From NCBI GenBank assembly GCA_030652255.1, contig JAUSAZ010000171.1, positions 1-64,000 on the forward strand: a stretch of 64,000 nucleotides of DNA, given 5' to 3'. The notes beneath the pieces are model-generated. The model saw only the letters and a list, made by a program, of their open reading frames with translations, searched no databases and was not told the DNA's origin. The stretch is from Myxococcales bacterium. GTDB taxonomy: Bacteria > Myxococcota_A > Polyangia > Polyangiales > Ga0077539. Made by a program: the position numbers and the translations under genes. This document shows, piece by piece, positions 23,455-48,718 of this stretch. Each line of letters begins with the position of its first letter. Positions within the stretch are counted from its first letter, which is position 1.

Positions 23455-24225
23455 GTGAGCGCGCTGCGCGCGACACCCATGATCGACGACCCCACCCTCC
23501 AGAGCATCATCGAGCGCATCGTGTCGGGCACGCCGACGCGGGCCGTCGACGCGGCGCTCGGGGGGCAGCCCGGGGTGCTCGCGGAGGTCGACGCGGTGCG
23601 CGAGGCCGTGGCGTCGCTGGGCCTCGCGCTCGACCCGGTGGCCCCGTCGGCCGCGGCCCGTGCCCGCTTCCTCGACGCCGTCGCCGCCCTCCCGACGCTG
23701 CGCTCGAAGACCGCGGTGGTGGTCGTCGACATGCTCGTCGATCACCTCACGCCGGGCGCCGCGCTGGAGGTCCCCCGCGCCCGGGGCATCGTGCCGGCGC
23801 TCCGTCAGCGCCTCGCCGACGCGCGCGCCGCGGGCCAGCCCGTGGTGTACCTCTGCGACCACCACGAGCCCGGCGACCCCGACCTGCTCTCCTGGCCCGA
23901 CCACAACCTCGACGACCCGCGGGCGAGCGTGTGGCCCGAGCTCGCGCCCGAGGCCTCCGACCTCATCGTGCCGCACCGTCACTACAGCGGCTTCTCGGAG
24001 ACGGCCCTCGACGCCACGCTGCGCGCCGCCGGGGTCGACGCCCTGGAGATCACCGGGTGCATCACGGAGATCCACGTGTACGCGACGGTGCTCGACGCGC
24101 TACAGCGTGGCTACCGGGTGACGGTGCCGCCGGCCCTCCAGGCGGGCTCGTCCGAGCTGGTCGAGCAGGTCATCCTCGGCACGCTGAGCGTGCTGCGGCC
24201 GGTCGACCCCGACATCGCGCGCTGA
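23455..24225 (+). CDS. Isochorismatase-fold protein with atypical active site
   Basis: AVVVVDMLVDHL; LIVPHRHYSGFSETALDATLRAAGVDALEITGCITEIHVYATVLDAL. Confidence 0.85.
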   Translation: MSALRATPMIDDPTLQSIIERIVSGTPTRAVDAALGGQPGVLAEVDAVREAVASLGLALDPVAPSAAARARFLDAVAALPTLRSKTAVVVVDMLVDHLTPGAALEVPRARGIVPALRQRLADARAAGQPVVYLCDHHEPGDPDLLSWPDHNLDDPRASVWPELAPEASDLIVPHRHYSGFSETALDATLRAAGVDALEITGCITEIHVYATVLDALQRGYRVTVPPALQAGSSELVEQVILGTLSVLRPVDPDIAR

Positions 24226-24247
24226 CGGAGTCGTCGACCGCCGACCG

Positions 24248-24510
24248 GAGCACCCGCCCACGCCAACGGTCACCGGCCTCGCCCTCCGAGGGGAGCCCCC
24301 GCCCACGCCCACGTCTGCAGTCCCAGCTCGCGCGGCGGACGCATGGGCCTACGGTGAACCCCGGCCAGCGGGACCGCGCGAGCTTGGACTGCAGACGTGG
24401 GCGTGGGCGGGGGCTCCACCTCGATCGGCGAGACCGGTGACTGCAGGCATGGGCGGAGGCTCCCCTCGATCGGCGAGGCCGGTGATCGTCGGCGTGGGCG
24501 GAGGCTCCCT
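24248..24510. repeat. Long imperfect inverted repeat (left arm 24248-24335, right arm 24374-24462) with an extra direct unit to ~24510
   Basis: Left arm reverse complement ccgcgcgagctgggactgcagacgtgggcgtgggcgggggctcc matches 24374-24417. Confidence 0.85.
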
Positions 24511-24558
24511 CGTCGGACAAAGGCCCATGGCGATAGGGCAGCCGTCGCCCGCGACGCT

Positions 24559-24584
24559 GTAACCGTCCGTCCCCCGGTGGCGCA
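24559..24584 (+). promoter_or_regulatory. Candidate ECF-type promoter GTAACC-N16-CGCA upstream of sigma gene
   Basis: Direct sequence match by eye; resembles Caulobacter SigF consensus as recalled. Confidence 0.3.
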
Positions 24585-24669: not shown

Positions 24670-25242
24670 ATGTCCGCCGACGACCGCGACGACCGCCTCG
24701 AAGCCTGCATGGAGGTCTTCCTCCAGGGCGACGCGCGCGGCTTCGAGCGGCTCTACCGCCGGCTCGCGCCGCGGCTGCGGGGCTTCCTGCGCGGCCTCTG
24801 CGGCGACCCCGGCCTCGCCGAAGACCTCACCCAGGCGACCTTCCTCAAGGTGCACCAGGCCCGCGAGACCTACCGCCTCGGGGCCCCGGTCGAGCCCTGG
24901 GTCTTCGCCATCGCGCGGCGCACCTGGCTCGATCACCTGCGCTACCGTCGGCGTCGCCCGGAGGCCCTGAGCGCCGACGGTCAGCTGCCCGAGGCCCACC
25001 CCGACGCCGCCGCGCCGCAGGGCTTCGAGGCGCTCTCCGCCGACTCCCTGGAGAAGCTCGAGCGCAGCCTGGAGCAGCTCCCGGCGCCGCAGCGCGAGGC
25101 CATCGTGCTGTTGAAGGTCGAGGGGCTCTCGGTGGCCGAGGCCGCGGACGTGGCGGGCATCACCGCGAGCAACCTCAAGGTGCGCGCCCACCGCGGCTAC
25201 GAGGCGCTGCGCCGGGCGCTCGGCGTGGGGGGCTCGTCGTGA
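24670..25242 (+). CDS. RNA polymerase sigma factor, sigma-70/ECF family
   Basis: RGFLRGLCGDPGLAEDLTQATFLKVHQARETYR; LPAPQREAIVLLKVEGLSVAEAADVAGITASNLKVRAHRGYEALRR. Confidence 0.92.
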   Translation: MSADDRDDRLEACMEVFLQGDARGFERLYRRLAPRLRGFLRGLCGDPGLAEDLTQATFLKVHQARETYRLGAPVEPWVFAIARRTWLDHLRYRRRRPEALSADGQLPEAHPDAAAPQGFEALSADSLEKLERSLEQLPAPQREAIVLLKVEGLSVAEAADVAGITASNLKVRAHRGYEALRRALGVGGSS

Positions 25243-26039
25243 GCGGCTGCGACCGGGTCGTCGACGCGCTCGCCGGGCGCAGCGCCCTCGACGGCGAGCT
25301 CGCGGCCCACGTCGCGCGCTGCGGCCCCTGCGGCGCCATGGTCGCCGCCGACCGCGAGCTCGACGCGCTGACCGTCCCGGCCCCATCGGGCGACGAGGCG
25401 CTCCCGCCCGCCCTGCGCGACGCCCTCCGCCGGGACGCGCGCCCCGTGGCGGCCTTCAGCGCCTGGCGCCGGGCGCTGCCCGCGGCGGCGGTGGCGCTCG
25501 CGGTCGCGGCCGTCGGGCTCCTCGCGCGGCCCCGGGCCGACCTCGCCCACCAGCCCGTCGGGCGCATGGCCCTGGGCGCCGGGGCGGCGGTCGCGGGCCT
25601 CGCGGTCGCGCTCACGCTGCTGCTGCACGGCGGCCGGCGCGGCCTCGGGCTCCCGGCGAGCGTGCGCTGGATCTTCGTGGGCTCGGCGCTCGCGGGCTTC
25701 GCCGCGGTGTCGGCGGCGGTGTCGGTGCCGGTGGAGGGATCGGTGCACCTCGCGGGCGCGGCGGCGTGGCTGGCGCGGCTCGGGTGCGCGCTGCACGGGA
25801 CGGCGCTCGCGGCGCTCGTGGGGGCGGTGCTGTTCTACGGCGCGCGGCGCAGCGCGGCGGTGAGCCCGGCCGCGGCCGGAGCGGTGGCGGGCCTCGGCGC
25901 GGGCCTCGTCGGCGCGCTCGCCCAGCACCTCCAGTGCCCGGTGATGGACCTCGACCACACCCTCGTCGCGCACCTCGCGCCGGTGGCCCTCGGGGCGCTG
26001 CTCGGCGCGCTCGCGGGCCGCCGCTGGCTGGCGCCGTGA
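25239..26039 (+). CDS. NrsF/DUF1109-like anti-sigma membrane protein
   Basis: GTGA overlap with sigma gene; ~6 TM segments; C-term LQCPVMDLDHTLVAHLAPV typical of DUF1109. Confidence 0.78.
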   Translation: MSGCDRVVDALAGRSALDGELAAHVARCGPCGAMVAADRELDALTVPAPSGDEALPPALRDALRRDARPVAAFSAWRRALPAAAVALAVAAVGLLARPRADLAHQPVGRMALGAGAAVAGLAVALTLLLHGGRRGLGLPASVRWIFVGSALAGFAAVSAAVSVPVEGSVHLAGAAAWLARLGCALHGTALAALVGAVLFYGARRSAAVSPAAAGAVAGLGAGLVGALAQHLQCPVMDLDHTLVAHLAPVALGALLGALAGRRWLAP

Positions 26040-26094
26040 CGGCCAGCCCTCTCGAGCTGGCGCCGCGCCCGTCGCCGCGCCCGTCGCCGCGCCC

Positions 26095-26225
26095 TGAAGG
26101 ACGCGGCAACGCGTGCAGCAGTGAAGCCCGCAAGCGGGCTGGTCGCGGTACCTGGACATCGTACAGGCCGTTGCGGCCTTCATCGCTGCACGCGTTGCCG
26201 CGTGTTTCAACACGCGGCGACGGGC
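26095..26225. repeat. Dispersed palindromic element, family A copy 2
   Basis: 26100-26140 pairs with 26164-26203; core agcccgc-gcgggctgg..ctgg.catcg.acaggccg..gcggcctt shared with copies 1 and 3. Confidence 0.8.
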
Positions 26226-26253
26226 GCGGCGACCCCGTGGAAGGGCTGGCGCC

Positions 26254-27093
26254 GTGACGGCCGCTGCGAGCGCGCGCGTGGCGGGCGTCGGCCTCGGGCT
26301 GCGGGCCCCGCTCTTCCGCGACCTGATGACCCGCGCGCCCGCAACGCTGCGCTGGATCGAGGTCTCCCCCGAGAACCACATCGGCCGCGGCGGCTTCTTC
26401 GAGTCGATGCTCGCCGACGCCCGCGGGCGCTATCCCCTCGTGACCCACGGGATCAGCCTCGGGCTCGGCGACCGCGAGGCCCCGCCGCGGGACTTCCTCC
26501 GCGCGCTGCGGGCCTTCCTGGAGGAGGTGGGCTCGCCCTGGCACAGCGACCACCTGTGCTTCGGCGCGGTCGACGGCGCCCACCTGCACGACCTCCTGCC
26601 GCTGCCCTTTACCGAGGCCAGTATTCGCGCGGTGGTCGACCGCGTGGCGCTCCTCGAAGACGCGCTCGGGCTCCCCATCGCGGTCGAGAACATCTCCTGG
26701 TACGCCCACCCCGGCGACGCGGCCATGGGCGAGGCCGACTTCCTCCAGGAGATCACCCACCGCTCGGGCGCCGGGCTCCTGCTCGACGTCAACAACGCCT
26801 ACGTCAACGCCCGCAACCACGGCACCGACGCCCGGGACTTCATCCGCCGCGTGCCCGCCGACCGGGTGGTGCAGATCCACGTCGCGGGGCACCTCACGGG
26901 CGCCGACGGGCTTCGGATCGACACCCACGGCGAGGCCGTCTGCGACGAGGTGTACGAGCTGCTCGCGCTCGCCCTCGCGCGCACCGGCCCGGTGCCCGTG
27001 CTGCTGGAGCGCGACGGGGGCTTTCCCCCCTTCGACGAGCTCGCCGCGGAGATCGAGCGCCTCGACGCCATCGTGCGGGCGGCGGCGCCGTGA
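26254..27093 (+). CDS. DUF692 / multinuclear non-heme iron oxidative (MNIO) enzyme, BufB/MbnB-like
   Basis: GVGLGLRAPLFRDL; WIEVSPENHIGRGG; HSDHLCFG; VENISWYAH; LLLDVNNAYVNARNHG; HVAGH. Confidence 0.9.
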   Translation: MTAAASARVAGVGLGLRAPLFRDLMTRAPATLRWIEVSPENHIGRGGFFESMLADARGRYPLVTHGISLGLGDREAPPRDFLRALRAFLEEVGSPWHSDHLCFGAVDGAHLHDLLPLPFTEASIRAVVDRVALLEDALGLPIAVENISWYAHPGDAAMGEADFLQEITHRSGAGLLLDVNNAYVNARNHGTDARDFIRRVPADRVVQIHVAGHLTGADGLRIDTHGEAVCDEVYELLALALARTGPVPVLLERDGGFPPFDELAAEIERLDAIVRAAAP

Positions 27094-27833
27094 GCGAGCT
27101 CGACGCCGCGCAGCGGGCCCTCGCCGCGGTGTGCCTCGGCGCCCGGGTCGACGAGGCCGCGCTCGCCGCGCTCGGCGGCGACCCGCGGCGCTGGCGGCTC
27201 TACCGCGACCTCGTGCGCAACCGCCTCTGGGCGCTGGCGCTCGAAGGGCTCCCGCGCACCGTCGCGGCGGCGGGGGTCGAGCGCTTCGGTGGGTGGTTTG
27301 CGGACATGCTGGAGCGCGACCCGCCGCGCACCCGTTTCGCGCGCGACGTGGCCCCGGCGCTGGCCGAGCACATCCGCGGGGCGGCGGGCGACGCGCTGGC
27401 GGCCGCCGAGCCGTGGGTCTCCGAGGCGCTCGCCCACGACGTCGCCGAGCACCACGTGGGCCTCACCGCCGACCGCCTCGACCCCTCGCGGGTGACCGAC
27501 TTCGCGATGCACCTCCCCGCGGCGCTCGACCCAGGGCACCGCCGCCTGCGCCTTCGCTGGGAGCGCGTCGACGGTGAATGGACGGAGCGCCCGCGCGCGC
27601 TGCTGCTGCACCGCCACCCGACCCTCCACGGCGTCGAGGCGCTCGCGCTCAGCCCCCTGGCGGCCGACCTGCTCGACGCGCTCGACGAGGGCACCACCCC
27701 CGCGACCGACGCCGTGCGCGCGGTGCTGGGGCGGCACGACGTGGCGGCGGGGGCGGCCTTCATCGAGGGCCTGGCGGCGCTGCTCGCCGAGCTGATGGAG
27801 CGAGGGGTGCTGGTGGGGTCGCGACGGGGGTGA
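27090..27833 (+). CDS. DUF2063-like partner protein, BufC/MbnC-like
   Basis: GTGA overlap with DUF692 gene; GDPRRWRLYRDLVRNRLWALALEGLPRTVAAAGVERFGGWFADMLERDPPRT resembles DUF2063 N-terminus. Confidence 0.7.
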   Translation: MSELDAAQRALAAVCLGARVDEAALAALGGDPRRWRLYRDLVRNRLWALALEGLPRTVAAAGVERFGGWFADMLERDPPRTRFARDVAPALAEHIRGAAGDALAAAEPWVSEALAHDVAEHHVGLTADRLDPSRVTDFAMHLPAALDPGHRRLRLRWERVDGEWTERPRALLLHRHPTLHGVEALALSPLAADLLDALDEGTTPATDAVRAVLGRHDVAAGAAFIEGLAALLAELMERGVLVGSRRG

Positions 27834-48222: not shown

Positions 48223-48718
48223 GGGCCCCCTCACCGCGCTGCCGCGCGCCCTCACCCCCGCGGGGCGCTCATCGTTGCCCTCATCGTGCGTAGAGCGCTT
48301 GCAGGCTGGGGTGACGAGCCATCGCGCGGAACCCCAGCCATCCTCACACCTTCGCGCCCGGCTGCCGCGGGTTGAAACCCACGGCAGCCTAAGGTGAAGG
48401 CCGCAAGCGGCCTGTCCGATGTCCAGGCACAGTGTCCAGCCCGCCGCGGGCTTTCCCTTGGCTGCCGTGGGTTTCAACCCGCGGCAGCGGGGGCGCGAAG
48501 GTGTGCGGGTAGCTCGGAACCCGCAGCCTACAAGCGGTTCGCGCACGAAGAGGGCAACGATGAGCGCGGGGCGGGGGCAAGGGCTCAGGGGAGTGACAGG
48601 TTCGCGAACGGACTGAACACGCCGAAACCCTTCAGTCCACGACCCACCTCGCCAACGTCGGAGCCCTTGCCCCCGCCCCGCGGGGGTGAGGGCGCGCGGC
48701 AGCGCGGTGAGGGGGCCC
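48223..48718. repeat. Repeat island: 45-bp perfect terminal inverted repeats (48223-48267 / 48674-48718) enclosing family A copy 3 (48268-48505) and a further hairpin
   Basis: gggccccctcaccgcgctgccgcgcgccctcacccccgcggggcg and its exact reverse complement. Confidence 0.9.

Follow-up and report, generated by a model that had tools for sequence, protein, structure and literature searches.

A maturase operon that lacks a precursor gene raises the question of what its enzymes act on. Such an operon lies at positions 24,670 to 27,833 of the window, the whole analysed stretch of 64,000 nucleotides from a Myxococcales bacterium. The four coupled genes and two GTGA overlaps (sigma/NrsF and MNIO/partner) claimed in the earlier note were recovered at exactly the same coordinates, and HMM matches agreed with all four of its gene identities. 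The ECF sigma factor (24670..25242, + strand) matched Sigma70_r2, PF04542 (E 5.6e-18) and PF08281 (E 2.1e-12). The NrsF anti-sigma factor (25239..26039, + strand) matched PF06532 (E 6.2e-15, 56 bits against a cut-off of 26.8) and was the single NrsF copy of the window's genome. It carries an N-terminal H-x3-C-x2-C finger (H24, C28, C31) and a membrane domain with Cys183 and Cys233, 50 residues apart; an ECF sigma factor with a PF06532 anti-sigma factor bearing paired cysteines is the composition expected of SigF/NrsF. The MNIO (DUF692) maturase gene (26254..27093, + strand) is intact and its product matched PF05114 (MbnB_TglH_ChrH) over residues 11-274 (E 2.4e-90, 302.8 bits against a cut-off of 25), a full-length family domain with the metal-site residues kept.

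Since single-sequence searches with the MNIO partner (27090..27833, + strand) gave weak scores, this protein was examined by profile and structure. HMM searches matched it to NGO1945_C, PF22106 (E 1.1e-6, 29.4 bits), above the cut-off of 27, and to DUF2063, PF09836 (E 7.6e-5, 23.4 bits), under the cut-off of 27.2, which the orthologue of the sister species passes with 33.7. A partner-family profile built from 23 relatives matched NGO1945 (3DEE) with an E value of 6e-11, and the sole PDB fold matches of the AlphaFold model (pLDDT 93.8) at E < 1e-3 were 3DEE and TglI (8HI7, 8HCI), both MNIO partners. The predicted fold thus resembles both that of TglH-TglI (8HI7) and that of NGO1945 (3DEE), while sequence identity to TglI and NGO1945 is just 12-14%. 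The HMM and fold matches identify the protein as a PME-type 1 partner (DUF2063 and an RRE-like, NGO1945-like C-terminal domain). The earlier note had staked its reading on a family match for this protein, and PF22106 provides it.

Analysis of the upstream region revealed a SigF-type promoter sequence, GTAACC-N16-CGCA (24559..24584, + strand), 111 bp ahead of the sigma start codon. It departs at one position from GTAACC-N16-CGAA, the SigF motif of Caulobacter (PMC3511200), and none of 500 shuffles contained an equally good site; the site is also the sole match to TGTAACCGN15CGNA in the window's genome. We infer from this sequence that the operon is autoregulated by its sigma factor. Together with the HMM matches, the promoter bears out the earlier placement of an MNIO and DUF2063 partner under a SigF/NrsF pair. 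The segment ahead of the promoter (24225-24560) is filled with short repeats, GC-rich and in both inverted and direct orientation (CCCACGCCCACGTCTGCAGTCC-like), a copy of which occurs elsewhere in one of the related genomes (G003).

The gap between the NrsF and MNIO genes is occupied by a dispersed palindromic (MITE-like) element of 199 bp (26045..26243), whose inverted arms of 63 nt are 87% complementary. It is flanked by an exact direct repeat of 19 bp, GGCTGGCGCCGTGACGGCC, a target-site duplication whose left copy (26026..26044, + strand) contains the NrsF stop and whose right copy (26244..26262, + strand) contains the MNIO GTG start. The family has 56 matches in the window's genome, the best at 98%, and direct repeats of 9-13 bp also flank some other copies. 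About 12 of the copies are long (82-98%) and about 30 are shorter relatives of about 100 bp, many of them at contig ends; a further member lies in the window at 48353-48453 (- strand). The earlier description of the gap (26040-26253) as a palindromic repeat without a Cys-rich secreted small ORF was confirmed, as neither strand holds an ORF with a signal peptide and Cys motifs. We therefore rejected a concealed precursor, whether in the gap or on the opposite strand, and no genuine precursor ORF, which would have overturned the earlier note, was found inside the locus. A search for structured RNA in the gap gave no Rfam match.

The window's genome (G000, 234 contigs) was compared with the related genomes G001 to G005, of which G001 (Myxococcaceae MAG GW715_bin.15) is a sister species and G005 belongs to another genus of the family; the genomes of the genus compared are fragmented assemblies. 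In G001 the syntenic contig C22 carries, in order, sigma, NrsF, precursor, MNIO, partner and mutS2. The sister sigma factor is 83% identical with an identical start, the NrsF cysteine pair is kept, and the two MNIOs are sisters in the tree with 85% identity and support 100/99. The sister precursor (165 aa, 10 Cys) has an N-terminus of lipoprotein type, and its stop lies 3 bp ahead of the MNIO start. Synteny in relatives thus upheld the earlier expectation of a precursor in exactly this gap, but not of a DUF2282 (BufA-type) one, since this Cys-rich lipoprotein has no Pfam or NCBIfam match. Because the sister operon carries the gene at this very place, the syntenic comparison shows that the window lineage lost a Cys-rich lipoprotein precursor by deletion. 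Among 65 related loci in GTDB genomes, at tblastn sensitivity, sigma and NrsF genes adjoin an MNIO gene in the sister operon alone.

The order of events can be read from the same junction. Virtual removal of the element and one repeat copy leaves the NrsF and MNIO genes overlapping by GTGA, like the other two junctions, with no space for a gene; the 19-bp duplication therefore implies that the ancestral junction was GTGA-overlapped. In G003, whose mutS2 is 97.4% identical, the NrsF-MNIO junction lacks both the element and a precursor. The repeat thus did not displace the precursor, and the loss to repeat insertion suggested earlier is refuted in that order: the junction sequences show precursor loss first and element insertion second.

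The window's genome contains three MNIO genes, and the genome-wide search for orphan precursors proposed in the earlier note found a stand-alone homologue. A precursor-leader profile detected it at positions 1545-2009 of contig C163 (E 1.5e-15), where it encodes 154 aa with 9 Cys, diverges from a phytochelatin synthase gene (E 1.2e-84) and has no MNIO gene on its contig. Its top score to the sister operon precursor was 376, followed by 360 for the precursor of contig C5, and the sister operon precursor in turn matched the C163 gene best (376; next 303). Relocation of the lost gene to C163 was nevertheless rejected: the precursor tree did not group the two with resolution, and G001 yielded no phytochelatin synthase for comparison. 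A search of plasmids gave no match to the C163 precursor. Contig C5 carries a complete cassette of precursor, MNIO and partner beside multicopper oxidases, in a copper island, and its MNIO is 81% identical to that of the window. The same C5 protein (L046) is 100% identical to one from another species of the genus (G004:C96, L045), so the contig may owe its presence to recent transfer or to misbinning. Two further stand-alone precursors occur in G001, on C195 and C133 (L164, L165); one lies beside a methyltransferase gene and the other is flanked by genes for a TonB receptor and a cation ATPase. "DUF692 without a precursor" is therefore true of this locus and not of its genome. Of the options put forward earlier, a trans-encoded precursor now has a concrete candidate, loss to repeat insertion has fallen, and modification of something else is unsupported.

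The reading to which we give slightly better than even chances, on the sequence comparisons, is that of a SigF/NrsF-controlled maturase-only operon whose cis precursor was deleted and whose enzyme pair now acts on a precursor in trans. A deletion of about 0.6 kb removed the cis Cys-rich lipoprotein precursor and brought the NrsF stop together with a new GTG start for the MNIO; the palindromic element later entered the junction, duplicating 19 bp and preserving the start codon. NrsF would sense metal or thiol stress and release the sigma factor, which would transcribe the operon that encodes it, the MNIO and partner genes included. The pair would most likely oxidise Cys of a trans-encoded precursor, from the C163 gene or the related C5 copper island, and the product, once exported and lipidated, would serve in the envelope as a buffer for copper or a comparable soft metal. 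Against this reading, the C5 MNIO could process the C163 precursor alone.

Action in trans and decay are near even as accounts of the pair, the former at about even chances and the latter a little under them. A decaying remnant, in which precursor and promoter were deleted, the substrate-less enzymes are on their way out and the sigma/NrsF pair is retained for another regulatory role, is a serious competitor to which we give rather less than an even chance. It fits the syntenic series: the locus is full in G001, precursor-less in the window, reduced to a 5' MNIO fragment in G003, and in G002 NrsF is followed directly by a glyoxalase gene with no cassette, an absence compatible with loss or with never having had one. 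The element is predicted to fold into an RNA hairpin of -175 kcal/mol (z -11.9) that covers the MNIO start region, and NrsF is found family-wide apart from MNIO genes. The sister precursor, moreover, has its own SigF-type promoter, deleted in the window. The sigma promoter site is kept in G001 and a related site precedes the sister precursor; the pattern AACCGTN12-14GGCGNACT, chosen after seeing the sites, has one match in the window's genome (sigma), two in G001 (sigma and precursor) and none elsewhere in the five genomes, and control patterns gave one match.

Selection evidence argues the other way. Neither the MNIO nor the partner gene has a stop or frameshift, and the MNIO keeps all 31 of 31 near-invariant polar residues defined from 66 homologues. 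Its dN/dS against G001 is 0.27, a value that covers the whole split from G001 and not just the time since loss, and its branch is as long as that of the G001 orthologue, with no rate difference between the lineages. With one outgroup the partner showed faster evolution than its orthologue (37 vs 16, p 0.005), which would suit decay; with two others it did not, and relaxed selection on it was rejected as outgroup-dependent (1/3). The loss in G003 is not specific to this operon, because its contigs C1064 and C1001 show some five large deletions across 8 kb relative to the window's genome, one every one to two kb, through genome reduction or an assembly fault; for that reason, the disappearance of both the enzymes and the orphan precursor from G003 was not counted as a functional link.

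No good SigF-type site precedes the C163 precursor; the best, at -265 with two mismatches, was matched by 11% of shuffles, and SigF control of this gene was rejected. An element, GTYACG-N13-CGRCTAG, lies upstream of the precursors of C163, C5, G001:C133 and G004:C134; it was derived from those same sequences, control patterns match equally often, and its sharing may reflect just common ancestry. Given that the C163 gene has no good SigF-type promoter and has this other element in common with C5 and G001:C133, induction of the enzymes may not be accompanied by that of the substrate. A stand-alone precursor of G005 (C60, L166, about 5520) has a perfect GTAACC-N16-CGAA site; it lies near putative egtB/egtD-like ergothioneine synthesis genes, named from sequence. 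A broader form of action in trans, a shared hub in which a single MNIO/partner pair matures several lipoprotein precursors whose solitary genes are spread over copper and phytochelatin islands, we consider unlikely, at around one chance in four; if it held, enzyme and substrate supply would stand under different promoters.

It is very improbable that the pair now modifies substrates of another kind, outside this family of lipoprotein precursors: the faster partner evolution seen with one of three outgroups would suit such a change, but no candidate was found and ancestral-type precursor homologues persist in the genome. Least probable of all is a precursor missing only through assembly error, which the fragmented 234-contig assembly and the poor assembly of palindromes would favour, but the MNIO N-terminus is altered (MTAAASARVAG vs MARVEG) and G003 has the same junction without the palindrome.

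Judged by its genes, the locus belongs to the known MNIO-PME1 class (the bufferin, oxazolin and 'captophorin' kind) under SigF/NrsF control. The Caulobacter crescentus SigF regulon comprises sigF-nrsF with CC3254-CC3257 and CC2907-CC2905 (DUF2282-DUF692-DUF2063) (PMC3511200), and the operon resembles it in its ECF sigma and NrsF genes with DUF692/DUF2063 genes and in its GTAACC-N16-CGAA-type promoter; the NrsF cysteines are spaced as in Caulobacter C131/C181 (PMC3511200). In contrast to Caulobacter, all genes form one + strand operon without a DUF2282 precursor or DoxX, and NrsF has the extra N-terminal finger. As in bufferin clusters, an MNIO is followed by a PME-type 1 partner, and stand-alone precursors are described there too; unlike bufferin and HvfABC clusters, there is no cis precursor, and the precursors of the genus carry SCGQ.G.CG-type motifs (SCG..GxCG). 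A DUF2282 or EGKCG identity was rejected for these, no Pfam or NCBIfam match being found, and the DUF2282 precursor that precedes the MNIO in Buf1 is absent from the window. Curated NCBIfam cut-offs were not reached for MNIO_BufB (272.6 bits vs 310) or for the HvfABC/oxazolin (Buf_EGKCG) proteins HvfB (280.4 vs 360) and HvfC (38.8 vs 142), and they place the locus outside both the DUF2282 bufferins and the EGKCG oxazolins. The cognate precursor general to RiPP clusters is present in the sister operon and has its candidate in trans on C163.

The MNIO-PME1 architecture and the Cys-Gly motifs of the candidate precursors recall the captophorins or thiooxazole metallophores (fontiphorin, oxazolin; PMC13097082), which are defined by copper binding and conversion of Cys to 5-thiooxazole, with an absorbance near 305 nm reported for oxazolin (PMC13097082). 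The system differs from them in that its candidate precursor is encoded in trans. Like the RiPP-lipoprotein hybrids (DAG-RiPPs, NedA; PMC12636315), the candidate precursors have a predicted signal of lipoprotein type that closes with a conserved Cys; unlike them, they have a different core motif, and lipidation is predicted from the signal. Stand-alone bufferin precursors and MNIO clusters without a recognisable precursor have been reported in surveys (PMC12452194), as have lipoprotein RiPPs (PMC12636315), so what is new here is the combination and the documented loss. An absent neighbouring precursor need not signal a new substrate class, a warning for genome mining. Whether MNIO pairs act across loci was left open (PMC12452194), and it is directly testable here because one close species group shows a complete operon, a precursor-less operon, a remnant and a cassette-free locus together with named trans candidates.

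Other MNIO genes showed further arrangements. A second MNIO clade, 37% identical, is represented on G000:C65 (L052 6602-8951) and G001:C182 (L053 6481-8929), with a long lipoprotein-like protein encoded downstream on the opposite strand that combines Asp/Val repeats with a Cys-rich end (CGGANSC..NCAGLNTCTGYTC) and is probably the precursor of that MNIO. On G001:C26 (L048 10139-11791) a precursor gene lies immediately ahead of a radical SAM gene, several kb from its own MNIO.
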